42,097 nt of DNA, taken from the NCBI GenBank assembly GCA_030600605.1, contig JAUVLT010000008.1:1-42097 (forward strand), given 5' to 3'. This DNA comes from Mycoplasmatota bacterium (GTDB lineage Bacteria; Bacillota_I; Bacilli_A; Izemoplasmatales; Izemoplasmataceae). The position numbers and the translations under genes are program-made. Numbering within the stretch: position 1 is the stretch's first letter; each line of letters opens with the position of its first letter. Shown here piece after piece: positions 14,411 to 39,175 of this stretch. Below the pieces are notes generated by a model. That model made no database searches. It had not been told where the DNA came from and saw only the letters and a program-made list of their open reading frames with translations.

Positions 14411-14984
14411 TTCAGCAACTAAATTCCTCTACGTGGCTTTATACGAGGATTTAAATTGTCTTGGAAAATATTATGAAGCAGGTAGTAATGATCACTCTAC
14501 TAAAATAATGGTTGAAATTGAAAAAATATTTAAGCTTAATGAGACAAAAGTAGCTGATTTAGATGAAATTATTATTGGGATTGGCCCGGGTAGTTATACA
14601 GGGTTACGCATTGGTGTTGTAATTGCTAAGATGTTTGGATGGAATAATGATATTACTGTAAAAACTATTAGTAGTTTGGCGGTAATGGCAAGCAGTTATA
14701 AAGGAAATAACTTGATTGTCTCTGAAATTGATGCTAGAAGAGGAAATTCATTTATCGGAGTTTATAAAAATAAAGGTAAAGGGCTAATTTTAGCCGATAA
14801 AGAAATTCTTACGAATTTAGATGAATTTACAAATTCATTAAAAGAACCCTATATTATAGTTAGTGAAGGAGAGATGAATTTAGAAAGAATTCTAAATTCA
14901 AGTTTATTGACAGAGGTTAAAGATATTCACTCATTAAACCCAAATTACTTAAGAATTACTGAAGCTGAAAGAAATTTAGGATAA
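14379..14984 (+). CDS. tsaB: TsaB, t6A-complex scaffold (inactive TsaD-like fold)
   Basis: Dimerises with TsaD to form the t6A-transferase core; it has an ASKHA fold without its own catalysis. Visible motifs are RLVIDSATKFLYVAL (about 7-21, usual ILAIDTST) and IIGIGPGSYTGLRIG (about 65-79), the hallmark of TsaB. Length is 201 residues, a little shorter than usual (220-230) at the C-terminus. I choose ATG 14379, 8 bases after AAGGAAT; this start lies inside tsaE, giving a 32-base overlap in another frame. A TTG at 14361 would also be open but has no ribosome site. No RimI gene follows directly, unlike the common order tsaE-tsaB-rimI-tsaD. Confidence 0.9.
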   Translation: MKKSLKRLVIDSATKFLYVALYEDLNCLGKYYEAGSNDHSTKIMVEIEKIFKLNETKVADLDEIIIGIGPGSYTGLRIGVVIAKMFGWNNDITVKTISSLAVMASSYKGNNLIVSEIDARRGNSFIGVYKNKGKGLILADKEILTNLDEFTNSLKEPYIIVSEGEMNLERILNSSLLTEVKDIHSLNPNYLRITEAERNLG

Positions 14985-15061: not shown

Positions 15062-16513
15062 ATGGGGATACTCCGTATAAAGAATCTACATAAGAGCTAT
15101 AAGCATGGAAATAACACCACACATGTATTAAAAGGTATTAATTTAGATATTGAAGAAGGTAGTTTTGTATCGATCTTAGGAAGAAGTGGATCGGGAAAAA
15201 CTACTCTTTTGAATGTAATAAGCACATTAATGGAGTATGAAAAGGGAAAAGTTATTATTGATGGACATGATATTTCAAAATTAAAATCTAGAAAGATAAA
15301 TACTATTAGAAATAATTATATAGGTTTTGTTTTTCAGGAATTTAATTTAGTAAAAGATATGAGTGTTTTAGATAATGTGGCAACTCCGCTTATTTTAAAC
15401 GGATTAAGCTTTAAGGAAGCTAGAAAAAAAGCGATAGTTGCGCTAACTCAAGTAGGACTAGAACAATACACCAAAGTAAGACCACCAGAATTATCAGGAG
15501 GGCAGCAACAACGCGTTGCTATTGCAAGAGCTATCGTAAATGATCAAAAGATTATTCTTTGTGATGAGCCAACTGGGGCATTAGATGATTATACAGCTGT
15601 AGATATTCTTGGAATATTAAAAGAATTATCAAAAACAAAGACAGTTATAATGGTTACTCATGATGAAGAATTTGCCAAGAAGTATAGCGATCGCATTATA
15701 ATGCTAGTTGATGGAAATATTGTAAAAGACGAAATACTAGTTAATAGAGACTTTAAAAAGACTGAGAAAAAGAAACTGAAAGACAGTAGAGCTGGATTTA
15801 TCAATCTATTGATGTATTCATTTTTGAGTATGGATATTGATAAGAAAAAATTTGGTAATACATTTAGAACTTTTAGTATCTCTTTAACTCTTTTTATTGT
15901 AATTGGTGTAATAAATCAAAATTTGGATATTTTTACTGACAGATATTTGAAGTTTTTTGTGCAAAGTGAAGCAGCGGATAAGAATATTATTTTAGATTTT
16001 ATTTATCAATTTTTGGAACAAAATATCTCTGCATTAATTCAAGTAATACTATATATATTAATTGGTTTTTGTATCGTTTCTTATCTATTTGTTTTTACTA
16101 TTAATATTATAAATAAGAAAAGGGAAATAGCTGTATTAAAGGCTTTTGGAGCATCACAAGAAGAGATAGCTATTTTGTTTATGTTAAGACCTATTAAGTT
16201 TACTTTGGCTATTTTTAAAGATACATTAATATATACGTTTATTCTTATTTTAATTATTAATGGAGTTTTTAATTTTCAATCTATTTTGATTGCTGATTAT
16301 TTTGGATTCTTCTTTAATTTTTTAGAGGTTACTTATGGTGTTTTTATATCGTTTATACTTAATAATGAATCAAGTTATATCGATTTTCATATTCACTACT
16401 CTCATATACTGTATATTTTCTTTACTGTTATTGGATTATTCATGATAGGTAGTTTAATACCTGCTTATAAAATATCAAGAAGTAATACGATACGGATGTT
16501 GGCAACAGAATGA
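15062..16513 (+). CDS. MacB-like ABC ATPase-permease fusion 1 (short ectodomain)
   Basis: A half-transporter in one chain. Residues 1-225 are the ATPase, with Walker A GRSGSGKTT (40-48), signature LSGGQQQR (144-151), Walker [13 protein letters not shown] (about 164-175) and switch His in MVTHDE. Residues about 270-470 are the permease with four helices (about 270-287, 325-350, 383-400, 447-467). The FtsX-type coupling helix is KREIAVLKAFGAS (353-365). The loop between helices 1 and 2 has only about 35 residues, so unlike the next three proteins it has almost no ectodomain there; the loop between helices 3 and 4 is about 45. ATG follows GGTGGTG. It overlaps the next gene by four bases. MacB-type pumps act by mechanotransmission on lipoproteins or peptides outside the membrane; the substrate is unknown. 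Confidence 0.88.
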   Translation: MGILRIKNLHKSYKHGNNTTHVLKGINLDIEEGSFVSILGRSGSGKTTLLNVISTLMEYEKGKVIIDGHDISKLKSRKINTIRNNYIGFVFQEFNLVKDMSVLDNVATPLILNGLSFKEARKKAIVALTQVGLEQYTKVRPPELSGGQQQRVAIARAIVNDQKIILCDEPTGALDDYTAVDILGILKELSKTKTVIMVTHDEEFAKKYSDRIIMLVDGNIVKDEILVNRDFKKTEKKKLKDSRAGFINLLMYSFLSMDIDKKKFGNTFRTFSISLTLFIVIGVINQNLDIFTDRYLKFFVQSEAADKNIILDFIYQFLEQNISALIQVILYILIGFCIVSYLFVFTINIINKKREIAVLKAFGASQEEIAILFMLRPIKFTLAIFKDTLIYTFILILIINGVFNFQSILIADYFGFFFNFLEVTYGVFISFILNNESSYIDFHIHYSHILYIFFTVIGLFMIGSLIPAYKISRSNTIRMLATE

Positions 16514-19500
16514 TTGAGTTAAAGAATTTAACAAAAGTATATGAGTCGATAAACTACAATGTAATAGCGTTAAGTGATATTAATTATAAATTTGAAAAAG
16601 GAGAAGTAATTGTTTTACTTGGAAAAAGTGGTAGTGGGAAAAGTACATTACTTAATATTCTTGGTGGTTTTGATCGTGATTACGCTGGTAAGTATATTTT
16701 GGGTGGCGAAAGTATGCGAGAAAAATCAGAAAGAGAAATTGACACTATTCGTAAACGTAAAATAGGGTTCGTTTTTCAACATTATATTTTATTAAATAAT
16801 TTAACCGTATTAGAAAACATTGAATTAGCTTTAAAGGTTATAGGTGTAATTAACTCAGGAAGCAGGAAAAGGGCTTCATTACACGCTTTAAAGCTTGTTG
16901 GACTTAGAGACCATGCTAACAAATATCCTTATGAGTTATCTGGGGGACAGAAACAACGAGTTGCTGTTGCGAGGGCATTTGTAAAGAATCCTGATGTTAT
17001 TATTGCTGATGAACCAACTGCGGCATTAGATTCTAGAACTGGTAACGAGGTTTTAGAGTTATTAAGAGATTTATGTCGTACTAAAATATTGATAATTGCA
17101 ACACATAATAAATCTATCGTAAGAGATTATGCATCAAGAGTTATTGAGCTCAAGAGTGGTTATACTATAAAAAATGAGCTAATAACTGATCCAGGTAAAG
17201 TAAGAGTAGATGAATTAGATTTAATTATTGATAAAGAAATTATTAAAGATGAAAAAATAGTACAACAAATAATTGATATTGAACAAATGGTATCAGAAGA
17301 AAATAAAGAAACGGTATTAAAGGATCTAGGTGTTGATTTAAAGAACTTTAGATTAAATACATCTGATAAATTTGATATTGATGATGAATTGAAAAAGCGC
17401 CTTATTAAAGAAAGAATGAAGAATTCTAAATTAAATACAAGAATTTATCGTTTCTTACAAACGAGTGATGATTTTCATGGTAAAAGAAAATATGCTAATA
17501 AATCATTTCTTAGAAATATAGGACTACATTTGTTTAGTTCTTTAATATTTACAGTTTTCTTACTTACTATTGTTTTTGGGTTAAACTTTGTTACTGAAAC
17601 ATTTGGAGGATTCAACGAAAAAGCCATGTTTACAAGAACAATGAATAATGAAAACGTGTTATTCTTTGCTAGCGAAGAGTTTGAAATGAAGGAAGTTGAT
17701 CAGGATTTGTATCACGATTTAGAGTTTCCTTTCATTAGTGATTTTACCCAAACAGAGATATCATCTAGTAATTTTTTAGATGAATTATTGATTGATCCTT
17801 ATTTTAGATATCAATATGAACAAGATAAAATAATATATATTCATGAAACGCTTCAAGAAAGAGATCTTGAAGATATTTTTGCTATCTATTATAACAATTC
17901 AAGTATAATTTTAAGACAAGAAAATGATGCTATTGTATTTGATGATTTAAAATATACTTATCAAAATATTGTTACTCATCCTGAGCCTTATACTTATGTT
18001 TCAGGATTTATGAATACCGACTTAGACCCTAATTTAATATATCAGTTTAATTATGTTTATAGTGAAAGCAATGAAGATATACTAAATGAACATATGCTTG
18101 AAGGAAGCCGTTTACCAGTAACTAATACTGAGGTTGTTATTCCTGTTGCATATTTGTTTGATTATGAAATTTTAAGCCAAGTAGATTTCAAAGATGAATA
18201 TGGCAATGTAATGGAAATTATTCCTAGCAATATGATAAGCGAGGCTTTTTTAGCGTTAGATGCTAGTGATAGAATGATTGAAATTACGAAGAATATAATA
18301 ACTTTTAGTGATGAAGGGAATTCTTATACGGAAAACTATACTACAGTGACGAGTGAGTTTGAAATTGTTGGATTAGTTAATTTTGATGGTGATATAAATC
18401 CTTTCTTAGAAATGCGTGATGATGTTTTTATTGCGAATAATGCCGGAATTAATTTCTCGTTTATTTTTAGTAATAAAGTTGAAGATTTAATTAACTTTGA
18501 AGTAGTGGATAATGCTTCAGTAGGTGAGTTTTCTAAAAGTATTCAATATGCTGAAATAAGTGTTGAAAACTATGAGATATATAATGTGGATGATATTGTA
18601 AATGATTTTGATGAAACATATATCTTAGAAATCAAACAAAACGTAAGTGATCAGTTTGAAACTTGGATTTTAACTCTGAATACTGCAAGTATACTAGTAA
18701 ATGATTATGTTCAAGATGATTTAGATGGATTAAATCCAGATTCTGCTTTTCTAGATGATTTAATTGATAATACAATGTTTGAAGGATTAACTCATCAAGA
18801 TTTACTGGATTACTATATTGCTCAACATATGTTAGTAACAAGTAGTAAAGAAGAATTCCAATATTTATGTGTAGGATGCAACTTCAATTCAAGATCTTTT
18901 GATAACTTAATAACTGAAGCACAAAGTGCTTACCCACGATTAAAGGCAAGTCTTCAATATGTTGATATGCTTGAAGATTATGGAGACGTGACAAGACTAA
19001 CATATCAAGAAAGCACGAATAGAATTATCTATGAAGAATATGGACATTTGTTTAATAATCAGTTTTATGAAAGTAAAAATGATGATTATTATACTTTAGA
19101 ACTAGTTAGTAGTTTTGAAAGGGAATACGGAAGTATTTTATCATTAGTCTTTTTGGTTGTACCAAGAATGATTATTGAAAATTTCCCTTTTATAGATAAA
19201 GTTATTGGGATGTTAGAAAATCTAGAAGCTAATCCAGGATTTATTAGTTTTATGGAAAGTACAAATTTAGATTTATTAATAAGTAGTGTAAGTACAAATG
19301 CTATTAGAAGTTTAGTAATGGTTGTTTTGTATCTTGTTGTATATATAATCTTGGTTGTAAGTACGATATTATTAAGTGTTGTATTAATAAATTTATATGG
19401 AAATATTTATGAAACAGCTACAAGAAAAAGAGTTAAAGAATTAGCTAGTTTAAGGGTTTTAGGTACTAGTTATGATGATATTCATGATATGATAAAGATT

Positions 19501-19794
19501 GAAAATAGGCGAGTAGCAATTTTTAGTTATCTATGCTTTTTGGGAATATTACTTATTTTAAGTAATTTACACTTATTTACTGATGCCCCTATTAAACATT
19601 ACTATATGCCTTTACTTGGGTTGTTTTTTGATTTTAATTTATTTGATGTGTTTGTCATGAATTATGTAGTTTTAGCAACAGTAACGATAATTTTCTACTT
19701 CTTCATCTATAAATTCATTATTAAGCGTGTATCTACTAAGAAACTTGGTAATATAGATACAATTAAAGCTATTAGAGATGGTGATAACTTATGA
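16510..19794 (+). CDS. MacB-like ABC ATPase-permease fusion 2 (very large ectodomain)
   Basis: ATPase at residues 1-220: Walker [10 protein letters not shown] (38-46), LSGGQKQR (about 143-150), Walker B VIIADEPTAALD and an ATHNKS switch. A charged linker at about 220-330 is followed by helix 1 (about 338-362). An ectodomain of about 560 residues runs from 365 to 925. Helices 2-4 follow at about 931-965, 1001-1021 and 1048-1074, with the coupling motif RKRVKELASLRVLGTS after helix 2. The total of 1094 residues is much larger than MacB (about 650). The ectodomain has one CVGC pair (near nt 18869-18880), which could form a disulfide. It shares four bases with each neighbour, so the ABC genes are coupled in translation. 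Confidence 0.88.
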   Translation: MIELKNLTKVYESINYNVIALSDINYKFEKGEVIVLLGKSGSGKSTLLNILGGFDRDYAGKYILGGESMREKSEREIDTIRKRKIGFVFQHYILLNNLTVLENIELALKVIGVINSGSRKRASLHALKLVGLRDHANKYPYELSGGQKQRVAVARAFVKNPDVIIADEPTAALDSRTGNEVLELLRDLCRTKILIIATHNKSIVRDYASRVIELKSGYTIKNELITDPGKVRVDELDLIIDKEIIKDEKIVQQIIDIEQMVSEENKETVLKDLGVDLKNFRLNTSDKFDIDDELKKRLIKERMKNSKLNTRIYRFLQTSDDFHGKRKYANKSFLRNIGLHLFSSLIFTVFLLTIVFGLNFVTETFGGFNEKAMFTRTMNNENVLFFASEEFEMKEVDQDLYHDLEFPFISDFTQTEISSSNFLDELLIDPYFRYQYEQDKIIYIHETLQERDLEDIFAIYYNNSSIILRQENDAIVFDDLKYTYQNIVTHPEPYTYVSGFMNTDLDPNLIYQFNYVYSESNEDILNEHMLEGSRLPVTNTEVVIPVAYLFDYEILSQVDFKDEYGNVMEIIPSNMISEAFLALDASDRMIEITKNIITFSDEGNSYTENYTTVTSEFEIVGLVNFDGDINPFLEMRDDVFIANNAGINFSFIFSNKVEDLINFEVVDNASVGEFSKSIQYAEISVENYEIYNVDDIVNDFDETYILEIKQNVSDQFETWILTLNTASILVNDYVQDDLDGLNPDSAFLDDLIDNTMFEGLTHQDLLDYYIAQHMLVTSSKEEFQYLCVGCNFNSRSFDNLITEAQSAYPRLKASLQYVDMLEDYGDVTRLTYQESTNRIIYEEYGHLFNNQFYESKNDDYYTLELVSSFEREYGSILSLVFLVVPRMIIENFPFIDKVIGMLENLEANPGFISFMESTNLDLLISSVSTNAIRSLVMVVLYLVVYIILVVSTILLSVVLINLYGNIYETATRKRVKELASLRVLGTSYDDIHDMIKIENRRVAIFSYLCFLGILLILSNLHLFTDAPIKHYYMPLLGLFFDFNLFDVFVMNYVVLATVTIIFYFFIYKFIIKRVSTKKLGNIDTIKAIRDGDNL

Positions 19795-21983
19795 TTGAGG
19801 TAAAAGATTTACAAAAGATATACCCTACTAAAGAACGTGATTTTATTGCTTTAAAAGATCTTAATCTAAAGTTTGAAGCAGGAGAGTTTATCGCTGTACT
19901 AGGGGAAAGCGGTAGTGGTAAAACAACATTTTTAAATATGATTAGTGGTGTGGATTTAAAAACAAGTGGTAAAATCATATTTAACGAACAAGATGTTGAT
20001 AAATTTAATGATGCTAAATGGCGAGAAATTAGAAACCAAGAAATTGGATTCATTTTCCAACGTTTTAATCTTATTGATCACTTAACAGTAATGGAAAATG
20101 TTGTATTACCATTAATTCTTACAGGTAGTGATAATAATATCGCAAGAGAAATTGCTAGAAGATTATTAAAAGAAGTTGAATTAGAAGGCACGGAAGATAA
20201 ATTAGCTAAAGAATTATCAGGAGGGCAAAGACAACGTGTCGCAATTGCTAGAACGATTATTGTTAATCCAACAATAATTTTAGCTGATGAACCAACTGGA
20301 GCGCTTGATAGTACTACAGGACTTGAAATTATGAAATTACTTCAGAGGTTTTCTGATGGTAGAATTATCATTATGGTTACCCATGATGAAGATTTGGCTT
20401 ATAAAAATGCTACACGAGTAATTAGATTACATGATGGTGAAGTTATTAGTGATGAGATTATTAAAGAAAAGAACAGCATTACAAGAGATACTACTAATCG
20501 ATTATTATCATATGAAACTAAGGTTACTAGAAGACTTAAAAGACGCTTGTTAAAGCAATTCCCAGAGATTGAGGATCAACTTCGAGTGGGGAAAAAATGT
20601 TTTGTGCCTTTAGAAAGAAAATATATTTCTAATAATCCAGTATTCACAAGAAAAATTGCGAGAGAGAATTTTAAGCAAAAAATTAATATAAACCGACGTA
20701 TTTTATTGAGTTTTGTTATTAGTATTAGTTTATTATTAGTTGTAAATATTGTCATGAAGAATATTAGTGCTTATAATTTTAATTTATTTGATGTTAATAA
20801 TAATTATGTTCAATATTTAGTTACTGATTATGACGATGAGACAACGGTGATAAATGCTTTAGATAATACATCTAATGTAGACGAAGTGTTACTTTATTAT
20901 GAACATTATGTTCAAGAGATGTATTTAGTGAGTGATGACGGGAATTTACCTATTACTTCTAATGTATCTACTGTTAATAAGGGAGTATTTAGTCCTAAGA
21001 TGGTTACTTTACCATCAAAATCTGAAAATTTCTTTTTAACTAGCCAAATTCTGGTAGGGGGATACCCTACTAATGATAATGAAATACTAGTTAGTAGTGA
21101 ATTTTTACTATCTAGATTTTATGGATATAGTTTAGAAAAAACATATAACCAAAGCACAGTATTAGCAGTTTCTAATTTGAATACTTTTATTGGACAAAAA
21201 CTTTATATATGTGGGGAAACCATTATTTCTAATGGAGCTGTTCCTACAACTGTTATAGATGAAAATTGTTTTGATTATGTCATCAAAGGAGTATTAAATA
21301 GTTATTACAATGGAATTAACTATACAGGGAATATTTATGTTCCTAACAAAGGGTTTACTGATTATATTACTTATTTAAGAGATGAAAAAGATTTTACTAG
21401 AGTGGATGAATATTATGATACTTATCTTTCATTCTATTTAGATGATATTACAGTTGGAATTGATATTACGAGTGTTAGTGAAGAAATTGATGCGACTATT
21501 TCAAATGAAGAATTGCGTGAATATAATGAGACACAAACATTAGAGAATATGCTTTATTATATTTATTTAGCCATATTTATTAGTTTGATTATTATTAGTG
21601 GGACAATTGATATTAATATTGTTGCTAGTAGTGTTGTGTCGAGAATTAGGGAGATTGGAATTTATTCATGTATTGGTGTAAGTAAAAAGAGCATTCGAAA
21701 TATGTTTGTGTTTGAAACATTAGAAATAGCTCTTAGGATATTAGTGATTAATTCAGCTATTTATGTAGGAATAGCCTATGGCTTTAAATTGTTGTATAAA
21801 CGAATTGTTGTTGATTTAACAATTTATGAAAGTATTTTTGGTATTAATGAGATGTTTAGTTATGAAATTTTGTTTAGCATAATGGTTATACTAGGCGCTG
21901 TAGGGTTTTTATTCGCAAGTGTATTGATTCCATCCTTTAAAGCTGCGAATATGAAGGCAATAGATGCATTAAGAAGTGGGTGA
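19791..21983 (+). CDS. MacB-like ABC ATPase-permease fusion 3
   Basis: ATPase at residues 1-225: Walker A GESGSGKTT (38-46), LSGGQRQR (about 142-149), Walker [13 protein letters not shown] and MVTHDED. A linker of about 80 residues leads to helix 1 (about 303-324). The ectodomain of about 260 residues (325-585) is MacB-sized. Helices 2-4 lie at about 586-612, 645-667 and 694-714, with the FtsX coupling motif RIREIGIYSCIGVSKKSI. It ends IDALRSG, the same kind of tail as in fusions 1, 2 and 4 (IRML, IKAIRDG, IDILREV), which fits the conserved end of MacB/FtsX permeases. Start overlaps the previous stop (ATGA); the next gene begins four bases after its stop. Confidence 0.88.
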   Translation: MIEVKDLQKIYPTKERDFIALKDLNLKFEAGEFIAVLGESGSGKTTFLNMISGVDLKTSGKIIFNEQDVDKFNDAKWREIRNQEIGFIFQRFNLIDHLTVMENVVLPLILTGSDNNIAREIARRLLKEVELEGTEDKLAKELSGGQRQRVAIARTIIVNPTIILADEPTGALDSTTGLEIMKLLQRFSDGRIIIMVTHDEDLAYKNATRVIRLHDGEVISDEIIKEKNSITRDTTNRLLSYETKVTRRLKRRLLKQFPEIEDQLRVGKKCFVPLERKYISNNPVFTRKIARENFKQKININRRILLSFVISISLLLVVNIVMKNISAYNFNLFDVNNNYVQYLVTDYDDETTVINALDNTSNVDEVLLYYEHYVQEMYLVSDDGNLPITSNVSTVNKGVFSPKMVTLPSKSENFFLTSQILVGGYPTNDNEILVSSEFLLSRFYGYSLEKTYNQSTVLAVSNLNTFIGQKLYICGETIISNGAVPTTVIDENCFDYVIKGVLNSYYNGINYTGNIYVPNKGFTDYITYLRDEKDFTRVDEYYDTYLSFYLDDITVGIDITSVSEEIDATISNEELREYNETQTLENMLYYIYLAIFISLIIISGTIDINIVASSVVSRIREIGIYSCIGVSKKSIRNMFVFETLEIALRILVINSAIYVGIAYGFKLLYKRIVVDLTIYESIFGINEMFSYEILFSIMVILGAVGFLFASVLIPSFKAANMKAIDALRSG

Positions 21984-21987
21984 TTGA

Positions 21988-24696
21988 ATGAGCCGCGGAG
22001 ATATTATTTTACGCCTTGTAGATGTTGAAAGAGTTTATGAGACAAAAGAAGGACGCAAAATTGTAGCACTTAACAAAGTGACTACGTCTTTTAAGCGTGG
22101 CGAATTCGTGGCAATTGTTGGAAAAAGTGGTAGTGGTAAGAGTACTTTAATTAATATACTTGGAGGGCTTGATAGACCTGATGGAGGAGATTACTTTTTA
22201 GAAGGGAATAACATTGTTAGTATTAATGAGGGACATTGGGATGCTATTCGAAATGAAAAGATTGGATTTATCTTTCAAGAATATCATTTAATTGAATATT
22301 TAAGTGTTTATCGAAATATTGAAATAGCCTTAAAATATCAAAGCACATTAAATAAAAAAACAAGAGCTGCTAAAGTTAAAGACATTTTAACAAAAGTAGG
22401 AATTATTGATCATATGCATAAACTTCCTGGCCAATTAAGTGGTGGGCAAAGGCAACGTGTAGCGATTGCTAGAGCTTTGGTAAAAGACCCTGACATCATT
22501 TTGGCTGATGAACCAACAGGGGCATTAGATCATAAAACTAGTGAAAATGTTATCGAATTAATTAAAGGTCTAAGTAAAGAAAGACTTGTAATTGTTGTTA
22601 CTCATGATAGAGGGATTGCTAATGAACATGCTACTAGAATTATTGAGTTAACAGAGGGTAAATTTACTAGTGATTTAATTAGAGAAGATATTGAACAAAC
22701 GTATCAAAATGTTTATAAGAAGACAAAACCAACAAATTTAAAGTTTAGAGATAAGATTGATTTAACATTTAGAAAAATAAAATCACAACTCTTAAGAACA
22801 TTCTTTACGGCGCTATCTCTAGCTTTGGCGTTTAGTTTTACAATACTTTTTAATGGTGTTGAAAGAGGTATTAGTGAATCATATGATGCTTATTTTGAAG
22901 CGTTAAACAAAGCTAATAGTTATGCATTTAGTTTTGTTCCTGAGGATGAGGCTGTAAGTTTGAATGAATATAATGAAGCTTCAGAGAATTTACTTGATTC
23001 ATTTCAATCATATTTTTATAGTGAAAATAGTGAAATAATAGAGGGGAATAGCGTAGATGTGGCGTATAGTTTGGAAAGCAGAGGAGTAGAACATGTTTCA
23101 AATATACCAACAAGGCCTGATTTACTTTCGGAATATAAACTAAGATTAATTGATGTAGCTGAGACACAAGACTATAGTTATAGTGATCTATTTATTGGAG
23201 ACAGCAATTATCCTTATGAGTTTGATGAAATTATGGTTACATCAAAATTTTATCGTCAATATACAGAGTTAAGTGATGATGTTGTTAATTTAAATTCATT
23301 TATTGGTACAAAAATATCTATGCCAATTTATAGTTTTGATATTTATACGGGAATATACAATACTGAAGAATATTTAAATCTTTTAATTGAGTTAGAAAAT
23401 GGTGATATTGTAGAAGATAACCCTTTAATAACACAAGAAACTTTAAAAGTAAGATATTTAAAAATAAACATTCCACAGTATTGTTATCATTATGAAGATA
23501 TTAATAGTTACTACCAAAATCAATGTGATCAAATCATAGATGATGAGAAATATAGTAGATATTTTGAAAGTATTGACGAATATATTGAATATGTTGATGG
23601 ATTTAAGGAACAAGTAAACAATATTGATCCAGACTATTTTGATATTTTGTTTAGAAGTGGAGCTGTCTTTTACGTTATAGATGAAAATGAAATAGAAGGA
23701 TATATTCCTCCAGGTGGAGAATATTATATTGAGAGAGTATATCGTGCTCTTTATGAAGAGGCAGATGATGATTATGATGAGGGATTATCTTATTTCAAAG
23801 AAGGGGTTTTTAAAGATCAATTGTTACAGAAAGAAATGATTGTAACAGGAATTATTGAAAATGATAATGAAGCAATTGTATATATGGATTACGAAACTTA
23901 TAATAAGTTATTTGTTTCTAGTCCGGGAGTAGATGTTTTAAGTGGGTATTATAGTATTAACTTAGAAAGTGGTATTAGAAAAGATTATGAACCTTATGAT
24001 ATAGCGGTTGAGTATTTTGCTATACCTTTACAAGGTGTGAGTAATCAGTATCAAGATGATTATTCGATTATTAGAAAAGAATATATTGAACAAGGAGAAG
24101 TTTGTTCAATATATAGTCTTGATAATGTAATTAATGATAATACTGATTTTGAAGATGTAAGGCTGTTAGGGGATGTATTCACTATTACTGATTATTCAAG
24201 TTGTAAGATGAATACTGAAAGCTATCATTATTTACAAAGTATTAAAATATTATTTGGTGTTTTCTTTAACGTGTTGATGTTTATTAGTATTATTTTCTTC
24301 AATATATTACTTCAAGTAATTTTAAGTGAAAGAATATCTGAAATTGGTGTCTATAGAAGTGTTGGATCCACTAGTAAAGATATTAAGTATTTATTCTTTA
24401 TTGAGATATTGTTTGAAATAGTTTTGGCTTCTATTATGAGTATTATTATTATCTACTTTGCTAACCAAGTTGTTAATGCAATGTTTTTATCAGCGATTAA
24501 CCAGGGAAGTGGTGTTATTACGTTTGCTGGAATGAAGCTGAGTATTGGTAATGATAATTCTATTACAAATATCAGTATGTTTAATTTGGCATTCTATATT
24601 GTTGTTGTATTCATAATGATTGGTTTCTTAAGTAACCGAAATGTTAGTAAATTGGCTAATACTAAGCCAATAGATATATTGAGAGAGGTGGAATAG
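21988..24696 (+). CDS. MacB-like ABC ATPase-permease fusion 4 (large ectodomain)
   Basis: ATPase at residues 8-235: Walker [10 protein letters not shown] (45-53), LSGGQRQR (about 150-157), Walker [13 protein letters not shown] and VVTHDR. Helix 1 is at about 269-291 ([17 protein letters not shown]), followed by an acidic, Tyr-rich ectodomain of about 460 residues (292-752) with several cysteines (near nt 23482, 23524, 24103 and 24202). Helices 2-4 lie at about 753-778, 805-828 and 868-885, and the coupling motif is [18 protein letters not shown]. The stop TAG is followed at once by the ATG of the giant lipoprotein gene, so the pump and the surface protein are made from one message. Confidence 0.88.
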
Positions 24697-27600
24697 ATGA
24701 AAACAATTAGAAGATATCTTGTTGTATTAGTAATTTTACCGCTTATAGTCTTTTTGGGAAGTTGTAGTAAAACGGCTGAAAATGAGCATTTACCGGAATA
24801 TTGTCAAACTTATTCTGGGTTTATGTCTACGGCTAGTAAAGATTTGTATGATTTAATTGGAGATATAAATAGATTTAATTATCTAAGTGTTATTTCAGAG
24901 ATTGAATTAGAATTTGAAGTTGATGATCCAAATATTGAAATTGATTTAAATGGTATTCAATGTTTCCAAAATCTTACATCTTTAACGTTAATTGGGCAAA
25001 GTTTTAAAGATATTAGTCCGATTAGTGCTCTTAAAAATATTCAAAAGATTGTTTTAATTGATACTTCTATAGTAAGTATTGATAGTTTTAAAAATTTAAG
25101 TAAAGTTAATGAATTAACCATTTCTAATACTAAAACACTACAAAGTGTTGACGGTGTTGAGGAAATGACTAAACTAACGAGGCTTGATTTAAGTGATAAT
25201 GGGATTGTTAATATTGAAGGACTAAATAATTTGGTTAATTTAACTGAATTAATTCTTTCGAATAACAAAATCACATATTTCCCTTCAATTAATCAATTAG
25301 AGTTATTAGAAACCCTTGATGTTAGTAATAATGAAATAGTGCAGTTAGGGGAAGATCTAAGTGGTCTAAGAAACTTAAAAGAGTTTATTGCTAGGCAAAA
25401 TAACATATGTGATTTAAGCACACTAGATGATTTAGTAAGTTTAGAAATTCTTGATTTAAGTGAAAATGATTTAGGATGTGGTGGACTTGGAGCTAGTCCA
25501 GACTTTTCTAGTTTAGAAAATGCTCCTAATTTAAGAGAAATCTATTTAAATGATAATAATTTAACTTCAATAGAGGATTTAAGAGGAAAAACATTAATAC
25601 TTCAAGTATTACATTTAGAAAATAATAACTTAACTGATATTACCCCTATTGGAAACTATACAACTATTAGAGAATTAGTCTTATATAACAATAATATCGT
25701 TAATATTAGTGATTTAGCAGGTATGATAAACGTTACTGAAATTGATTTGTCTGAAAATAGCATAGTTGATTTTTCTAACTTAAGAGATATTCCTAATCTT
25801 GAATCTATTGATTTAAGTAATAATAATATCGATTTTATTCCTGATATGAGTGATTCTTGGGCACATTTAGAAGTTCTTGATTTAGATAGTAATAATTTAA
25901 CTGACACTTCAGGAGTTAATGGACATGCCAATTTACAGACTTTAATACTTTCTAATAACGGAATAACTGAATTAAGTGGAATAAGTAACTTACCATTACT
26001 TGAAAATTTAGTTATGGTATGGGAAATACCTGAAGTTATCCCAGATGACTTTGTGTTTGAAGATAACCCAAATAGTATTAGTATAATTCGAGACTCATTT
26101 AATAGTTTACCTTTACTATTATTGACAGATGAAACTGATACATTTGATTTTGGATTTGAACTTGGACCACATGTTGAAATTTATAATTCAATAAGTGATA
26201 TTGATAATATTGGTACAATTGATTTTTCAGATATGGATATTGATTTTATTGATGGAGATTCAATCAATTTGGATAATTTACTAGCAATTGATGTTAGTGA
26301 TAATAATATTGCAGATATTTCCTTTATCTTAGGTAATCCCAGTCTTCAAGTATTGAATATTTCGGGTAATAGTATTAATAATTTATCAGTAATAAGTGGA
26401 GTAGATACGAGTGATCTTGATAATTTAGATCAAATAAATGCAGCGAATATTGTAACTTCAAACGACTTGGTTGATGCATTTATCGAGTTACCCGAATTGT
26501 CATATTTAGATTTAACAGGAACAAATATCACATCGATTAATAATTGTTTCAATAATTTAGATGAATTAACAGATTTGGGTATTGATTCACCAGTATTAGA
26601 AAGAATAATTGATTCATTTAATAATTTGTATGCTGTTCATACAGCAGATAACGTTATTTCATTTGTAGATAGTAAGATTGGTGAAATAAATGGTAGTTTT
26701 AACAATGGACTTTATGAACAAATTATTATTCAAGATAATATTGCTGGTTTCTCGGAAACAAAAATAATTGATTCGTTTAATAATCTAGATAGTGCGAATG
26801 ATATTAGTATTTTAATAACTGGGAATGATTTTAAAGTTGTTGAAGGTAGTTTTAATAATACAACAGCAGTTACTTTATTCCTTGGTGATAATAATATTGG
26901 AACAATTACAACAAGTTTTGATGGTTTAGCAGTGTCTGATGAGTTGAATCTTCAGAATAATAAATTAGAAACATTAGTAGGATTAAATAATGCATTTTTG
27001 ATTCCATCACTAAACTTGAGTAACAATATACTTACTACAGTTAGTTTCTTAGATGCTGTTACAGGGCTAGAAAGTTTAGATATTTCTAATCAATATGATA
27101 GTGATTTAGATGTACTAACACTAACTGAGATTGATGGTATTAATAATATGCTTTTATTGACAGAAATAGTCATGGAAGATATGTTGATAACTTCAATTGA
27201 TGGGTTTAAGAATATTGGGATAGATAGTTTTATATTAAGTAAAACTGATAATAATAACGGAACTATTGTTTCAATTTCTAGTACATCGTTTAGTAATTCA
27301 TTAATTACAGATTTAGACTTAGGAGGACATCAATTTACAAACATTGATTTTTTAAATAATTTTCCACAGTTAGTTGATTTAACAATCTCTATAAATATAG
27401 CTGATTTAAGCGACTTCCAGGATATTATATTTGAAAGCACATTAGATTCTTTATCACTTGAAAATATTTCAGAAGTAACTGATTTTAGTTATTTGAATGG
27501 TTACGATGCTTTAACATTCTTTTACTTCTCAAGTGAATTAACGTTAACAATTAATAATTTTAGTGGTTTAGATTCATTAACAAGTTCTAATTTTGCGGAT

Positions 27601-30600
27601 AGAGCTTCTATTACGACGATAAATAATAGTTTTAATAATATGAATAGCATGTCCTTAACGTCTAGTTATTTAAGTCTATTTACTAGTTTAACTGATGTAT
27701 CTACAAGTTTTAATATTTATGAAAATACTAATAGTGTATTTATTAGAGGTAATTTAAATATTGTTGATAGTTTTAATAATGTTGGAACACTAACCCTTGA
27801 TAGTGGGGCTGAAACAAGTCCTAATTTTGATACATTAAGTTTCGATTTAATGCATACAATAAGTATTGATAACAGTTACTACGATAGTTATAATTTCTTG
27901 AATGGCTATACATTGTTATCATCGGTAACAATTCAAGAATTAGAAAAAAACATGGTTGGATTAGTAAATAACAATATAACATCTATAGTTATTGCGAATG
28001 TTGATGCAACTGTATCAATAATAGATATTGATATAGCAAGTAGTGGTAGTCTAATTTTTAATAGTAATACGGCTATTAATATAGCGGTTTCTGGGGATAA
28101 TATTGAATATGATATGAGTTCAGTAGGTGGAGTCGTTACTTTATCTGTGGATAATAGCGCTTTAAGTCTTAATGGCTCATTAAATACATTAACTGTTGAT
28201 AGTGTTAATTTAACAACTACAACATTTGATGAAATTGAAACAACAAATATGACTTTTAATACTAATTTACTTAATCAAATATTAAGAACTAATTCTTCAG
28301 CATTTAACGCAACAACCATAAATATTAATAGTTTAAGTGTTGCTTTAGATATTCATGTTGAAGCTAACACACTTAATATATACGATAATAATGCAACAAC
28401 ATATGATTTAATTGTTGAAGGCGGGAATGTTAATTTATTCACTATTGAAGCTGATTTAACAGTTGGTTTTACTGGGGAAGATTTAAATGTTGCTTATGAT
28501 AGTCTTGAAACAATGGATATTAGTGGTAATATTAACAATTTAATAATTGATTCGAATGTAATTGATGATGTTAACTTAAATAACACAATTGTTAGTAGTG
28601 TGGATATTACTTCAGAACAAAGTATTATCAATGTACTGGGAACTGGCATTGTAGAGCTTCAAATAACTGATAATAACATTACTACTCCTACATTAACAGT
28701 TGGATCAGCAGATGTAACGATAACTTCAACATCTTCTGCACCATTAACAATTGATGTTAATGCCGGAAGTCTTAATTTAGAAATAGTGAATCTACCTAGT
28801 ATCGTCTTTGTAACTACTTCATCACTAGGATCTTTAGATTTAACTGATGGAGCAAATGTTGATACATTGACATACAATAATGCAAATATATTAAGTACAC
28901 ATTTAGTAACTAATCAAGCTATTCTTTCTGTTACTGGAACTAATAGTACAGGATTTGATATTGATGCAAATAATTTAACAAATGTAACCATTAATTTGGC
29001 GGGAGCAACATTTGACATTGATGCTTTAACTACAGCTATTGCTGCAGATATAGTAGCTACTACAGTTGCTATTGATAGTCCTAATTTAACAGATATTACA
29101 TTAACGGCTTCTTCAATTATTGGAACATTTGATATATTGAATAGTGTCTCTGTTGATACACTTAGTTTTGCTACTGCAAATATTAATAATCTAAATGTTA
29201 ATAGTGGTGTAATTGATATTTCATTATCATCTATAAATACACTGGAAACCGCATTACAAGGTGATAATTATAATACTATATTAGTTGATGTTGGGACAAA
29301 TAATATATCATTTGTTTCAGATAAAACATCTAGTATAGCATTTGATTTAACAGCAAGTGATGTTAGTATAATTACTACTTTAAATACAGTTACAATTAAT
29401 GATACTAGTAATATTGTTAATTTAGCTATTGCTTCGGATTCATTAACAAATGTTCTTGGAGGAAGTGCTACTATTACTACACTTGATGTTACAGGAAGTT
29501 CTGCTTCATTAAATGTTACAGGAAGTAATCTAACTTCTTTAAGTGTGAGTGATGTTGATATTACAACATTTGACGCAAATGTTGCTTTAGCTACCTCTGT
29601 TGAATTAAATACTAGTGCATCAACATTAGTTACAATAAATACAACAAGTGAAAACATCACCATCACTGGTAATTCTGATATGTCGATTACTAGTCCAACA
29701 TTAGTTGCTTCAACAATAAATACTGCAAATAATAGTGTTGTAACCTTTAATCTTAGTAAAGCTGCTTTAAATTATACTTTGAATGGAGTAATGGGGGACG
29801 CAGTTGTTAATTCAAACACAATGGATAACTTTGTTGTTGGAACAGGCTTAATTTTAGATACATTAGAAATAATTAATGATAATATTACTACATTAGACCT
29901 GAATCCAGGTACAGTTAGTAATTTGGAAATCACAAGTACAAATACTACTATGAATATACTGGGTAATAGCTTAGTTACAGTAATTATGAATATGAATAAT
30001 TTAGATAATATGACGGTAAATAGTACTGCAAGCGGAGCGATAGTTAACGCTTCAACATTTGCATCTAGTTTGAGTGTAAATGGGGCAATCGATAATGTTA
30101 TTGTTGTTGGGGGAAATTTAAGTTCTGTTGATTTGAATGGAACTATTGGCAGTGTTGATATAAGTGGAAATAGTTTGACAAGTGTTGATTTAACTAATGC
30201 AAATTATAATAATTTAGTAATAGATAGTGATGTACTAGCAAGTTTAGATACATCAGCAAATAGTGTAACTACTAGTTTAGAGGTAGCTACTACTATTAAT
30301 GATTTTAATCTAACATCAAATACTCCTAGTATTACCTTCTTAGGTGATTCTTTAGATAATCTAAATATTACTACTTCCTCTTCTGTGATGAATTTATCAA
30401 CAACTAATGATTCTGTGACATTGAATGGAGCAACAACTGATTTTATTATTACAGGAGCTAACTTAAATAATATTCTTGGTACTGCTAAGACTGTTGATAT
30501 TACAAATGAAACGGATGTACTGGGGTTTGTATTTGATTTAACCGCTAATTCAGTAACTTTTACTAGTAATACATCAACTAGTTTATTATTTACTGGTGGA

Positions 30601-31545
30601 ACAACAATTCCTACATTGAATTTGGAATCTTCATCAATTACTACAATTAATACTGATAATATAACTGTTAATACACTGAATTTTATTTCAACGGGTACAG
30701 TAACACCAGTGATTGATACATTAAGTGAAACTGTAGACATTTCAAGTACAAGTAATGATACAGTTACTTTGAATTATTCAGGAGTAAATGCATTAAATAT
30801 TTCTCTAGATAGTTTATTACTAGCAAATATTAATATTAGTAATGCTCATGTTGTTAATTTTGATGGAAATAGTACGAATGTTGAATTAAGTGGATCAAGT
30901 ATTGATACTGTGGACACAAATGCTTTATCAATAGCAAATAAATATACAATGAACGATACTTTAATTACTAATTTAGATTTCATTAGTACAAACTTATTAT
31001 TGAATATTGTTGAAATAGAAGTAAATACTCTTAATACGGCAAGTATTGAAACGATAATTACTAAATTAGAGGGTAGTGGAGTTACTCTATTTAGCCCTAT
31101 TACTTTAGCGAATATATATGATTACTATTATGATGATAAATATCTTGAATTAACTAATCAAGAAGTTCTTGACACTTTACGTTATCAAGGATTTAGAGAT
31201 GCAGCTATAACTAATGCATTTGATGAAATTAGATTAAACGAGTATTTTGATTATGTTGAGGATACTACTTTAAATACGACAATTAATGAGCAAACATATT
31301 CAACAATGCAAGTGTATTATGATGGTTATTTGGTATCAATTGGGGAAACAGAAGAATCACTAATAGCTGCGAATGATGCAGCATTTGTTCAGGCTATTAA
31401 AGATAGCATTCAAGCTACTTTAGATAAAACAGTACTTGTTATTGATGAACTTGATTTAAACACAAGTGTTGAAAATAGTATTATTGATGATTCAACGATA
31501 TATGCAACAACAGAAAGAGATAATATTGGATTCAATATTGGATAG
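24697..31545 (+). CDS. Giant surface lipoprotein: LRR domain plus long Asn/Thr/Ser-rich solenoid
   Basis: 2282 residues. A lipoprotein signal is clear: KTIRRY, a hydrophobic stretch, then lipobox LGSC with the lipidated Cys23, so the protein is anchored outside the membrane. Residues about 90-445 hold some 16 leucine-rich repeats of 22 residues, of the form LxxLDLSxNxIxxI (repeat starts near 93, 115, 137, 160, 182, 204, 227, 249, 279, 302, 324, 346, 368, 391, 413 and 435). Residues about 460-1040 continue as degenerate LRR-like turns with a recurring SFNN motif. Residues about 1085-2115 are a polar beta-solenoid-like region (Asn, Thr, Ser, Asp alternating with Ile, Leu, Val). Residues about 2120-2282 form a different, charged, mostly helical end domain. 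It starts directly at the stop of ABC fusion 4. Likely roles are adhesion or binding at the cell surface, with the ABC proteins acting on it or its ligand; that is inference. No sortase or wall-anchor signal is seen. Confidence 0.9.
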   Translation: MKTIRRYLVVLVILPLIVFLGSCSKTAENEHLPEYCQTYSGFMSTASKDLYDLIGDINRFNYLSVISEIELEFEVDDPNIEIDLNGIQCFQNLTSLTLIGQSFKDISPISALKNIQKIVLIDTSIVSIDSFKNLSKVNELTISNTKTLQSVDGVEEMTKLTRLDLSDNGIVNIEGLNNLVNLTELILSNNKITYFPSINQLELLETLDVSNNEIVQLGEDLSGLRNLKEFIARQNNICDLSTLDDLVSLEILDLSENDLGCGGLGASPDFSSLENAPNLREIYLNDNNLTSIEDLRGKTLILQVLHLENNNLTDITPIGNYTTIRELVLYNNNIVNISDLAGMINVTEIDLSENSIVDFSNLRDIPNLESIDLSNNNIDFIPDMSDSWAHLEVLDLDSNNLTDTSGVNGHANLQTLILSNNGITELSGISNLPLLENLVMVWEIPEVIPDDFVFEDNPNSISIIRDSFNSLPLLLLTDETDTFDFGFELGPHVEIYNSISDIDNIGTIDFSDMDIDFIDGDSINLDNLLAIDVSDNNIADISFILGNPSLQVLNISGNSINNLSVISGVDTSDLDNLDQINAANIVTSNDLVDAFIELPELSYLDLTGTNITSINNCFNNLDELTDLGIDSPVLERIIDSFNNLYAVHTADNVISFVDSKIGEINGSFNNGLYEQIIIQDNIAGFSETKIIDSFNNLDSANDISILITGNDFKVVEGSFNNTTAVTLFLGDNNIGTITTSFDGLAVSDELNLQNNKLETLVGLNNAFLIPSLNLSNNILTTVSFLDAVTGLESLDISNQYDSDLDVLTLTEIDGINNMLLLTEIVMEDMLITSIDGFKNIGIDSFILSKTDNNNGTIVSISSTSFSNSLITDLDLGGHQFTNIDFLNNFPQLVDLTISINIADLSDFQDIIFESTLDSLSLENISEVTDFSYLNGYDALTFFYFSSELTLTINNFSGLDSLTSSNFADRASITTINNSFNNMNSMSLTSSYLSLFTSLTDVSTSFNIYENTNSVFIRGNLNIVDSFNNVGTLTLDSGAETSPNFDTLSFDLMHTISIDNSYYDSYNFLNGYTLLSSVTIQELEKNMVGLVNNNITSIVIANVDATVSIIDIDIASSGSLIFNSNTAINIAVSGDNIEYDMSSVGGVVTLSVDNSALSLNGSLNTLTVDSVNLTTTTFDEIETTNMTFNTNLLNQILRTNSSAFNATTININSLSVALDIHVEANTLNIYDNNATTYDLIVEGGNVNLFTIEADLTVGFTGEDLNVAYDSLETMDISGNINNLIIDSNVIDDVNLNNTIVSSVDITSEQSIINVLGTGIVELQITDNNITTPTLTVGSADVTITSTSSAPLTIDVNAGSLNLEIVNLPSIVFVTTSSLGSLDLTDGANVDTLTYNNANILSTHLVTNQAILSVTGTNSTGFDIDANNLTNVTINLAGATFDIDALTTAIAADIVATTVAIDSPNLTDITLTASSIIGTFDILNSVSVDTLSFATANINNLNVNSGVIDISLSSINTLETALQGDNYNTILVDVGTNNISFVSDKTSSIAFDLTASDVSIITTLNTVTINDTSNIVNLAIASDSLTNVLGGSATITTLDVTGSSASLNVTGSNLTSLSVSDVDITTFDANVALATSVELNTSASTLVTINTTSENITITGNSDMSITSPTLVASTINTANNSVVTFNLSKAALNYTLNGVMGDAVVNSNTMDNFVVGTGLILDTLEIINDNITTLDLNPGTVSNLEITSTNTTMNILGNSLVTVIMNMNNLDNMTVNSTASGAIVNASTFASSLSVNGAIDNVIVVGGNLSSVDLNGTIGSVDISGNSLTSVDLTNANYNNLVIDSDVLASLDTSANSVTTSLEVATTINDFNLTSNTPSITFLGDSLDNLNITTSSSVMNLSTTNDSVTLNGATTDFIITGANLNNILGTAKTVDITNETDVLGFVFDLTANSVTFTSNTSTSLLFTGGTTIPTLNLESSSITTINTDNITVNTLNFISTGTVTPVIDTLSETVDISSTSNDTVTLNYSGVNALNISLDSLLLANINISNAHVVNFDGNSTNVELSGSSIDTVDTNALSIANKYTMNDTLITNLDFISTNLLLNIVEIEVNTLNTASIETIITKLEGSGVTLFSPITLANIYDYYYDDKYLELTNQEVLDTLRYQGFRDAAITNAFDEIRLNEYFDYVEDTTLNTTINEQTYSTMQVYYDGYLVSIGETEESLIAANDAAFVQAIKDSIQATLDKTVLVIDELDLNTSVENSIIDDSTIYATTERDNIGFNIG

Positions 31546-31554
31546 GAGGTGCTT

Positions 31555-32409
31555 ATGAAGAAATTATTTTTATTGCTTAGTATATTAATTCTTAGTGGTT
31601 GTGGAATGCTTGATAGAGGGAATTACAACAAAAATCGCTCAGGATACGTACTTAATGGAAACATGATTGTTAGTTATCACACTAATTCGATTGGTGAAAT
31701 CGATGTCTTTCAGATTGATCAAGTTATGTCTTTCTTCGAAGCGCTAGTTTATACTGATTTTGATTTAACTTTACTTTCTGAAAATGATATTCTTAATTCA
31801 TTTGTAAGTGTAGCTGAATTAGATAGTTGTGGTATAGATTCAACTGTTGTTATACCGAGATTTATAAGAGTACAAGATAATACTTATTTCTATAATGTTC
31901 GAGATAACGGCTATTGTACTTTTGATGAATATACATTCTATGATGAGGGATATACTGAACTAGTTGATTACACTGTGAGTGAAGTAAGTCCTTTAGAAAA
32001 GATTAATGTTACATTATTTAAAGACGCTGATTTTATGATTAACACTTTTGAAGTTGTTGTGTTTATTGAGAATATTTATTATGATGATAATCTTGAATTA
32101 TGGGTAAAAGAGATTGTTACAGCGTTACCAATGTCTTTAAAACAAGCGGGATCGATATATGAAGATAATATTAGTTTTGTTGAAGAGATAACTGTAATTG
32201 AAAAATATGTACTTGATAATCAAAGTATAAATCTATTAGTATTAAAAGAAAATTACCAAGATGAAGATGTAAATAATATTTGGGATGAAACCACTATTGA
32301 AGCGTTAGGTAGAGACCACGAGGTAATTAAAAAAGTAAGACTATACCAAACCCAAGATATTTTAGATATTATAAATGATACTTTGGGTAGATTGGGGATG
32401 TTTCAATGA
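31555..32409 (+). CDS. Small lipoprotein A of the ABC-solenoid block
   Basis: Signal peptide with lipobox LSGC near residue 17 (KKLFLLLSILILSGCGML), so lipid-anchored outside. The mature part, about 265 residues, is acidic and beta-rich with no family I recognise. It shares its opening with the next gene product: here YVLNGNMIVSYHTNSIGEID, there YLVSDDGNIIIDYKTNGNGE, followed in both by an IDxxxxxxxxxxY-type stretch. The two are therefore likely paralogues. I choose ATG 31555, placed after AGGAGG at 31544-31549; an in-frame GTG at 31549 lies at the end of that site. The gene begins 9 bases after the solenoid gene and overlaps lipoprotein B by four bases. Confidence 0.8.
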   Translation: MKKLFLLLSILILSGCGMLDRGNYNKNRSGYVLNGNMIVSYHTNSIGEIDVFQIDQVMSFFEALVYTDFDLTLLSENDILNSFVSVAELDSCGIDSTVVIPRFIRVQDNTYFYNVRDNGYCTFDEYTFYDEGYTELVDYTVSEVSPLEKINVTLFKDADFMINTFEVVVFIENIYYDDNLELWVKEIVTALPMSLKQAGSIYEDNISFVEEITVIEKYVLDNQSINLLVLKENYQDEDVNNIWDETTIEALGRDHEVIKKVRLYQTQDILDIINDTLGRLGMFQ

Positions 32410-33266
32410 AAAAACTATTTGGAATAAGTTTATTGTTGATTATCCTACTTAGTTCTTGCGATAGTAGCGCTTCTATCTATAACTTTAAAATTAGAAAAGA
32501 TGATTATTTAGTTAGTGATGATGGTAATATTATTATTGATTATAAAACAAATGGAAATGGTGAATTAATTGGGCTTAGTATTGATCGTTTGCTTACAGTA
32601 GAAGATATGATATACTTTAATCCATTAATTGATTATGATTATGTTTTAGAAGGATTTGAAGGAGATATCTTTACATCACCAGGATTTTTATGTACAAATT
32701 ACAACGAAATGATGATACCAATTAATATTGAAATTGGGAGTACTAGATTTAAATATGATCGTATTGATTGTGAATATCAGGAAGTAGATCGTAATAATAT
32801 TATTAAAAGTGGTTCATATTCTAGAAAATATCGTTTAGATGAGACGATTGGAGTATCTAAAGAAACAACTGTTAGTATTGTTGTATTTGATGTATTGTCA
32901 ATTGAAAAATTTGTTGATATTATTGATTTACCTCATACGGTAAAAATGTTAGGAGTATATAGTATTGCGATAAACGATGATTTAGATGGATTTGATTCGA
33001 GAACAACGAATTATTTTCAAGATATGGCTGTTTATGAACAATTAATATTAAAACATCAAGAAAATGAAATGGCGATTAATGAAGTTTTAGGATTTAGTAT
33101 GGATATTAACTTATTAGATTTTGATCAATTAGCCGAAGTAATTCCTTTAATTGAGGATTTTGAAAGTGATTATAGTTTAGAAATCGCAGCTATTGAGGAA
33201 TTAATAGATTTAATTGGTGTAATAAGTGATGAAGAAGTCGTCCCAGATGATGAAGAGGATGATTAA
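32406..33266 (+). CDS. Small lipoprotein B of the ABC-solenoid block
   Basis: Signal peptide KKLFGISLLLIILLSSC with lipobox LSSC (Cys18 by my count); the mature protein has about 268 residues. It is acidic, ends in a run of Glu and Asp (VVPDDEEDD), and is distantly similar to lipoprotein A at its N-terminus, suggesting a tandem duplication followed by divergence. Two cysteines in the middle (CTNYNE and DCEYQE contexts) match roughly the positions of two in lipoprotein A (DSCGID, GYCTFD), possibly a conserved disulfide. Start ATGA overlaps the previous stop. rimI begins 17 bases downstream. Function unknown; possibly a substrate or accessory part of the ABC system. Confidence 0.8.
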   Translation: MKKLFGISLLLIILLSSCDSSASIYNFKIRKDDYLVSDDGNIIIDYKTNGNGELIGLSIDRLLTVEDMIYFNPLIDYDYVLEGFEGDIFTSPGFLCTNYNEMMIPINIEIGSTRFKYDRIDCEYQEVDRNNIIKSGSYSRKYRLDETIGVSKETTVSIVVFDVLSIEKFVDIIDLPHTVKMLGVYSIAINDDLDGFDSRTTNYFQDMAVYEQLILKHQENEMAINEVLGFSMDINLLDFDQLAEVIPLIEDFESDYSLEIAAIEELIDLIGVISDEEVVPDDEEDD

Positions 33267-33283: not shown

Positions 33284-33736
33284 GTGGATATAAAGATTAG
33301 AAAAATGGATTTAAGTGATGTTTCTTATGTTTACGACGAAGAAATAAAAATATTTGGAAAAAGTTTAGGTGTAAAGACATTATATAAAGAAATTATGTAT
33401 AATGATTTATCTCGGTATTTTATTGCGATTGTTGATGATAAAAGGGCGGGATATGTCGGTAGTTGGCTAACTATTCCTAATGCTGAAATATTAAATTTAT
33501 TTGTATCTTCTGAATATAGGGGACTAGGAATTGGTAAAAAATTGATGAAAGAAGTAATGGATATTTGTAATGAACAAAACATTGAATTTCTTACTTTAGA
33601 AGTAAATGTTAATAATAAATATGCTGTTAAGATGTATGAGGATTTAGGATTTACTATAAGTAGAATAAGAAAGAAATACTATGATAATAAAGAAGATGCA
33701 TTACTTATGGTCTTAGAGTTAGGAGGTAAAACATGA
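33284..33736 (+). CDS. rimI: Ribosomal-protein-alanine N-acetyltransferase-like GNAT protein
   Basis: GNAT acetyltransferase of 150 residues. The acetyl-CoA loop is [17 protein letters not shown] (about 76-92) and the end motif is [21 protein letters not shown], matching RimI (usual NxxAxxLYxxxGF). RimI acetylates the N-terminus of ribosomal protein S18 in model bacteria and is commonly encoded between tsaB and tsaD, as the overlap with tsaD supports. Start is GTG 33284, 7 bases after AAGGTG (33271-33276). It ends inside the tsaD start (ATGA overlap). Its upstream neighbour is the lipoprotein block rather than tsaB. Confidence 0.88.
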
Positions 33737-34829: not shown

Positions 34830-34866
34830 AGGGTTGTATAAGAAAGAATTGAATGGAGGAATATCA

Positions 34867-39161: not shown

Positions 39162-39175
39162 AGAGGAGGGATTAT

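Follow-up and report, generated by a model that had tools for sequence, protein, structure and literature searches.

Four different ATPase-permease fusions (ABC1 to ABC4) and a giant LRR/beta-solenoid lipoprotein were found to be encoded by a gene unit conserved in two families of the same class, and we tentatively propose that they form a four-ATPase mechanotransmission complex that acts on, or by means of, a variable rod for recognition at the cell surface. In the window, which is the whole analyzed stretch of 42,097 nucleotides from a member of the Izemoplasmataceae, the block comprises seven co-directional ORFs at 15062-33266, all on the plus strand, which encode the four fusions, the giant lipoprotein, and two related lipoproteins, LipA and LipB (Table 1). 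The ORF check of the window bore out this composition as given in the original prediction, which was incomplete in that it missed the CvpA-like companions at 36840-40817 and the row of t6A genes around the block. The junctions in order from ABC1 to lipB were -4, -4, +4, 0, +3, and -4 bases; the predicted 4-base overlaps were thus present, and the predicted gaps of 0 to 9 bases apply only if the second lipA start is taken, which leaves 9 bases before lipA, the range otherwise being 0 to 4 bases. A promoter scan was uninformative, with 140 hits against 147 expected.

Table 1. Coordinates of the block, its companions, and the flanking genes in the window
Feature	Coordinates	Strand	Size	Evidence and remarks
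tsaE and tsaB, tRNA t6A genes, outside the system	13961..14984	+		Pfam TsaD-family match for 14361-14984; flank block or empty site in relatives
ABC1, ATPase-permease fusion	15062..16513	+	483 aa	ABC_tran E 1.4e-35, FtsX E 5e-7
ABC2, ATPase-permease fusion	16510..19794	+	1094 aa	ABC_tran E 1e-32; permease model like type VII structures
ABC3, ATPase-permease fusion	19791..21983	+	730 aa	ABC_tran, FtsX; hydropathy
ABC4, ATPase-permease fusion	21988..24696	+	902 aa	ABC_tran, FtsX E 8e-9; hydropathy
Giant LRR/beta-solenoid lipoprotein	24697..31545	+	2282 aa	LRR_4, lipobox, orthologues
Membrane-proximal LRR, conserved	24784..25896	+	residues 30-400	64% mean pairwise identity; dN 0-0.017 in near-identical pair
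Distal beta-solenoid rod (predicted), hypervariable	27964..30987	+	residues 1090-2097	AF2; 25% mean identity; dN up to 0.37
C-terminal all-helical cap (predicted)	30988..31521	+	residues 2098-2275	AF2 helices 1009-1186 of modelled piece
lipA, family-specific lipoprotein	31549..32409	+		Lipobox LSGC
lipB, lipoprotein related to lipA	32406..33266	+		Lipobox LSSC; hhalign to lipA
GNAT (rimI-like) and tsaD, ancestral, outside the system	33284..34725	+		Pfam; adjoin tsaB in most block-less relatives
CvpA-like membrane protein carrying a large additional region, companion	36840..39161	+	773 aa	Colicin_V; homologue leads f10 operon
Membrane protein, companion	39176..40207	+	343 aa	Homologue after f10 CvpA-like gene, hhalign E 4e-8
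Acidic protein without TM segments, companion	40200..40817	+	205 aa	49-residue C-terminal domain common with f10 homologue, hhalign E 5e-7

The block is set inside a row of tRNA-t6A genes, with tsaE and tsaB upstream and a rimI-type GNAT gene and tsaD downstream (Pfam; the gene that we take to be tsaE was named from its sequence and position). It was carried by 13 Izemoplasmataceae genomes, including those of the cultured Xianfuyuplasma coldseepsis zrk13, Candidatus Izimaplasma HR2, ZiA1, and Ca. Izemoplasma acidinucleici; the ABC2 permease was found at 59 to 85% identity in nine further genomes and also in G072. Wherever contigs were long enough, the order ABC1-ABC2-ABC3-ABC4-LRR-lipA-lipB was constant between tsaB and GNAT-tsaD. 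In the 17 block-less family genomes that were read, three of them from the window's own genus, no block genes lay between tsaB and GNAT-tsaD, and in most of these genomes tsaB and the GNAT gene were adjacent. Four genomes (G010, G013, G024, and G027; loci L057, L053, L051, and L054) had an unrelated gene of ~250 aa at the tsaB/GNAT junction instead, which implies that this spot took up unrelated genes more than once.

In the tsaD tree, all carriers, the partial genomes G003, G004, G006, and G012, and genome G031 formed one clade (support 99/100) with the other non-carriers outside, indicating either several separate losses within the clade or a less simple history. For G003, loss of the block was evident from a deletion scar, since its site keeps lipB remnants (18 residues at 72%, plus the C-terminal end). 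Upon loss, the LRR gene goes together with the ABC genes, and no relative was found that kept ABC1 to ABC4 with the solenoid gene absent or elsewhere, the pattern by which the original prediction would have recognized accidental linkage. Downstream of tsaD, the window encodes a conserved, membrane-anchored protein of 636 aa without a Pfam family (34834-36744), and nearly every family genome that was read has it in this position; in G001, G002, G004, and G006, tsaD is followed by a short relative of ~211 aa. Elsewhere in the window, a GGDEF diguanylate-cyclase-like protein (4569-5726) is encoded near a DisA-type DAC protein (1401-2129), in what is a small genome of a wall-less organism.

The co-occurrence of the LRR lipoprotein with runs of ABC fusions, for which a search had been suggested, was found to be conserved in two families. 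In four of the eight genomes of the second family (f10), the core of ABC1 to ABC4 and the LRR gene occurred in the same order at a different locus, within the arrangement CvpA-like gene, membrane protein gene, small acidic protein gene, ABC1, ABC2, ABC3, ABC4, and LRR lipoprotein gene; the contig of the f10 genome G101 ends inside ABC4. The LRR gene followed ABC4 in every complete block of both families. Constant order among the 13 genomes wherever contigs allowed, recurrence of the core at an unrelated f10 locus, and joint loss uphold the predicted block as a real conserved unit. A sample of 392 genomes from across the phylum yielded no further strong ABC2 match. The gene mraY was lacking in the host-family genomes that were sampled and present in all eight f10 genomes searched, carriers and non-carriers alike, and on the latter ground a tie of the system to wall-lessness was rejected. 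LipA and LipB, whose similarity spans ~150 residues (hhalign E 6e-8), are family-specific extras: lipA was present in 13 of 49 Izemoplasmataceae genomes and had no match in the genomes sampled from the rest of the class, those of f10 included, and in f10 the LRR gene is not followed by a pair of lipoprotein genes.

The CvpA-like gene at 36840 scored 29.0 bits (E 1.2e-6) against the Colicin_V Pfam model, just under the cut-off of 29.3, and aligned with the CvpA-like gene that leads the f10 operon at an hhalign E of 1e-11. Within the Izemoplasmataceae, it was absent wherever the block was absent, and the two genes that follow it (39176 and 40200) were retained in G003, G004, G006, and G012. Related CvpA-like modules that lack an ABC block adjoin gltX in both f18 and f10, and others adjoin recA in f10; in the CvpA tree the Izemoplasmataceae gene grouped with the gltX/recA-linked f10 copies and not with the ABC-linked ones (support 85/85, with long branches). 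Because of these ABC-free modules and this grouping, we rejected the idea that the triplet cannot be separated from the core and treat it here as a recruited companion. Several CvpA-like paralogues near gltX or recA/pgsA, each with a conserved partner of ~300 aa, were seen in f10 genomes (L129-L131, L133, L134, and L137).

Each of the four pumps is a type VII ABC subunit, ABC2 being placed by its predicted structure alone and the other three by the FtsX Pfam model and hydropathy. ABC_tran matched well above its cut-off in ABC1 to ABC4 (E 1e-32 to 1e-35), and the FtsX model was passed by ABC1, ABC3, and ABC4 and failed by the ABC2 permease. The Walker A, signature, Walker B, and H-loop motifs were intact in all four subunits across 12 or 13 orthologues of each (13 for ABC1). 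Each NBD was nearest to its own f10 counterpart (51 to 68%, versus 35 to 45% to its block neighbours), which implies that four distinct subunits already existed in the common ancestor of both operons. Hydropathy indicated about four to five hydrophobic segments per subunit (seven raw matches in ABC2), with the ectodomain after the first segment; this ectodomain was nearly absent from ABC1 (a loop of about 37 residues), largest in ABC2 (about 500 to 570 aa), and about 270 aa in ABC3 and 470 aa in ABC4. As modelled by AF2 (784 residues, mean pLDDT 73), the ABC2 permease matched LolE (Z 10.4), MacB (Z 10.1), BceB, HrtB, FtsX, YbbP, and YtrF, and the top 25 structural matches were all type VII (Z 10.4 to 6.8), values that are middling for a model of this size yet strongly consistent. 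By sequence, no solved relative was found for the ABC2 permease, LipA, or the CvpA-like protein. The ABC3 gene was split into two ORFs in G072 (L087:6029) and G001 (L016:8440), the latter break probably being an assembly fault, since it contains an unread base.

The best or near-best family-model matches of the NBDs include LolD and MacB, and the domains belong to the LolD/MacB/FtsE class while scoring under every cut-off checked: 177 to 224 bits against the NCBIfam MacB equivalog (cut-off 966), 194 to 219 bits against the LolD equivalog (307.75), and 181 to 205 bits against the FtsE equivalog (264.85), which also separates them from FtsEX. The MacB_PCD domain had no match in the whole genome, and 13 of 14 control genomes did match. 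Membership in the MacB family was rejected on the absence of MacB_PCD and the low MacB scores, and the earlier designation of the pumps as MacB type was therefore too specific.

The giant protein, LipA, and LipB each have a signal peptide and a lipobox cysteine near residue 20 and are predicted lipoproteins; the lipobox of the giant protein is LGSC, with Cys23. LRR_4 matched 12 stretches of it (E 2e-31; 108 bits versus a cut-off of 27), and LRR_8 reached 74 bits versus 27. For residues 1090 to 2282, AF2 predicted (mean pLDDT 86) a continuous beta-solenoid of ~1,000 residues with repeated strands, followed by a helical cap; at ~20 to 22 residues per turn, the rod would measure an estimated 45 to 50 nm if straight. 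A Foldseek search with the beta-solenoid returned nothing below E 0.1, the best match being the S-layer protein RsaA, and gave no evidence of a new fold. In G005 (L013:14946-14955), a stop at about residue 1384 interrupts the giant LRR ORF, which then continues in frame; decay, error, or true truncation would each account for this.

Mean pairwise identity among seven species fell from 64% in the proximal LRR through 42% in the middle to 25% in the rod and was 36% in the cap; ABC4, at 69%, was only a little more conserved than the proximal LRR, and tsaD had 79%. Variability was also compared in one near-identical pair, HR2 and CSMAG_300, both of them metagenome assemblies. In this pair the distal rod was hypervariable and the tested neighbours were nearly fixed: dN was 0.003 to 0.008 and dS 0.07 to 0.16 in ABC2 to ABC4, lipA, lipB, the GNAT gene, and tsaD; dN was 0.028 in gene 34834 and 0 to 0.017 in the first 400 residues of the giant protein; and windows at residues 700 to 2200 reached a dN of 0.39 and a dS of 1.05, with dN up to 0.39 at residues 701 to 800 and up to 0.37 in the distal rod. 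One strain of the pair has an extra module of 112 residues in the giant protein that is 44% like its neighbour module. The raised dS in the rod indicates that recombination contributes to the variability, and dN/dS was 0.5 to 0.9 at residues 1400 to 1900 and about 0.03 to 0.08 in most neighbours, suggesting that relaxed or diversifying selection acted as well.

The simplest reading would be a conserved, ATP-driven base that carries a variable recognition arm. Four type VII half-transporters, probably arranged as two heterodimers, would form one membrane machine in which, judging from the fold class, cytoplasmic ATP hydrolysis moves the extracytoplasmic domains and no solute is passed through a channel. 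These domains would act on the giant lipoprotein anchored alongside in the outer leaflet. The N-terminus of a lipoprotein is its membrane end, so that the conserved LRR should lie beside the ABC ectodomains and the variable rod should point away, and by its conservation the membrane-proximal LRR is the likeliest docking part. The solenoid rod would project outward, vary fast, and recognize a surface, a polymer, or another ligand, and ATP-driven movement could reset, release, or reposition the rod or its cargo. Lineage-specific helper functions may fall to LipA and LipB, with the CvpA-like module as a recruited companion. That pump heterodimers act on the giant lipoprotein had been part of the original prediction; such action would be reasonable for type VII pumps, but ABC1 has, by its hydropathy, nearly no ectodomain.

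Several known systems resemble the block in part. LolCDE shares the type VII fold, LolD-like NBDs, and action at a lipoprotein-bearing face; in contrast to it, the block has its ATPases fused in all four subunits, encodes its own giant lipoprotein, and includes no LolA, and no outer membrane is expected. MacB of MacAB-TolC is likewise an ATPase-first fusion with its ectodomain between TM1 and TM2, whereas the block has four unlike subunits and neither MacA nor TolC. YbbAP-TesA is a type VII ABC system with an extracytoplasmic partner, and YbbP is among the ABC2 matches (Z 8.6), but that partner is a lipid hydrolase and not an LRR lipoprotein (PMC12646458). The non-canonical Streptococcus pneumoniae ABC transporter (5xu1; Z 7.2 to ABC2) is a Gram-positive type VII transporter, though with a separate ATPase and no giant surface rod. 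BceAB has 10 TM helices and an ectodomain between TM7 and TM8, unlike the block subunits. Among LRR proteins, internalins come closest in that the LRR stretch matched the NCBIfam internalin_A model at 94 bits, far below the cut-off of 1600; unlike them, the block protein is anchored by a lipobox, has a predicted beta-solenoid of ~1,000 residues, and is linked to four ABC genes. LRR surface proteins and type VII ABC systems are both known kinds, and the new feature is the linkage of four unlike fused subunits with a single giant lipoprotein. A partial literature search returned no published description of such a system, in agreement with the original prediction, which knew of none.

Other functions were weighed against this reading. 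The pumps might pull the giant lipoprotein, lipids, or peptides from the membrane, as LolCDE or YbbAP does, for instance so that the rod is shed or placed on another surface. We regard such extraction as unlikely: LolD and MacB are among the best NBD matches, the structure closest to the ABC2 model is LolE, and the Izemoplasmataceae block encodes three lipoproteins, but all four NBDs fall under the LolD cut-off, the block has no LolA-like carrier, and we know of no Lol system that needs four different ATPase subunits. Nor is there any sign of a second membrane, given the lack of mraY in the sampled host-family genomes and the wall-less state of the cultured member (PMC8397711). That the rod binds an extracellular polymer, DNA being the obvious candidate, and passes it to pumps or nucleases for uptake would suit both a long, variable binding rod and hosts that degrade DNA (PMC8289736, PMC8397711). 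This idea is improbable in view of the block's lack of a nuclease or binding protein, the other genes with which published nucleic-acid loci are described, and the presence of the system in f10, a second family that may have another diet; moreover, type VII ABC systems are not, to our knowledge, importers of polymers.

We are equally doubtful of a role in sensing or stress like that of BceAB or FtsEX, in which the pumps and the CvpA-like protein would signal or dampen envelope stress, with the rod as a shield or decoy diversified by the pressure of attacking phages or grazers. Rod-specific diversification is what a phage receptor or decoy should exhibit, and BceB and FtsX are close structural matches of the ABC2 model; against this, the block has no two-component system, the subunits have about 4 transmembrane segments by hydropathy versus 10 in BceB, and defence models matched only generic ATPases. 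An anti-phage system as such was rejected on that same search, and a motility role was rejected because the cultured, wall-less carrier zrk13 is described as non-motile (PMC8397711). Finally, independent surface genes may be kept together solely by their position in an essential gene row, as the conserved host row tsaE-tsaB-rimI-tsaD and the solitary CvpA-like modules elsewhere would allow. Such linkage without a common function is very improbable, being largely refuted by the second family with the same gene order at an unrelated locus, and it also runs counter to the overlapping ORFs and to the disappearance of the entire block from several lineages.

Four different fused subunits are retained next to one another in two families, along with a giant lipoprotein whose outer part is the fastest-evolving section of the locus. 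The type VII ABC systems known to us use one permease dimer and one type of ATPase. It is conceivable, if somewhat unlikely, that the block represents a new class of envelope machine, in which four obligately different type VII ATPases actuate a hypervariable rod of ~50 nm and so move or reload a recognition arm outside a single membrane. If the proposed mechanotransmission complex is confirmed, mechanotransmission would extend to long surface structures, and wall-less, DNA-eating marine sediment bacteria would gain a named surface machine, one that is open to testing because the unit is present in the cultured X. coldseepsis zrk13.
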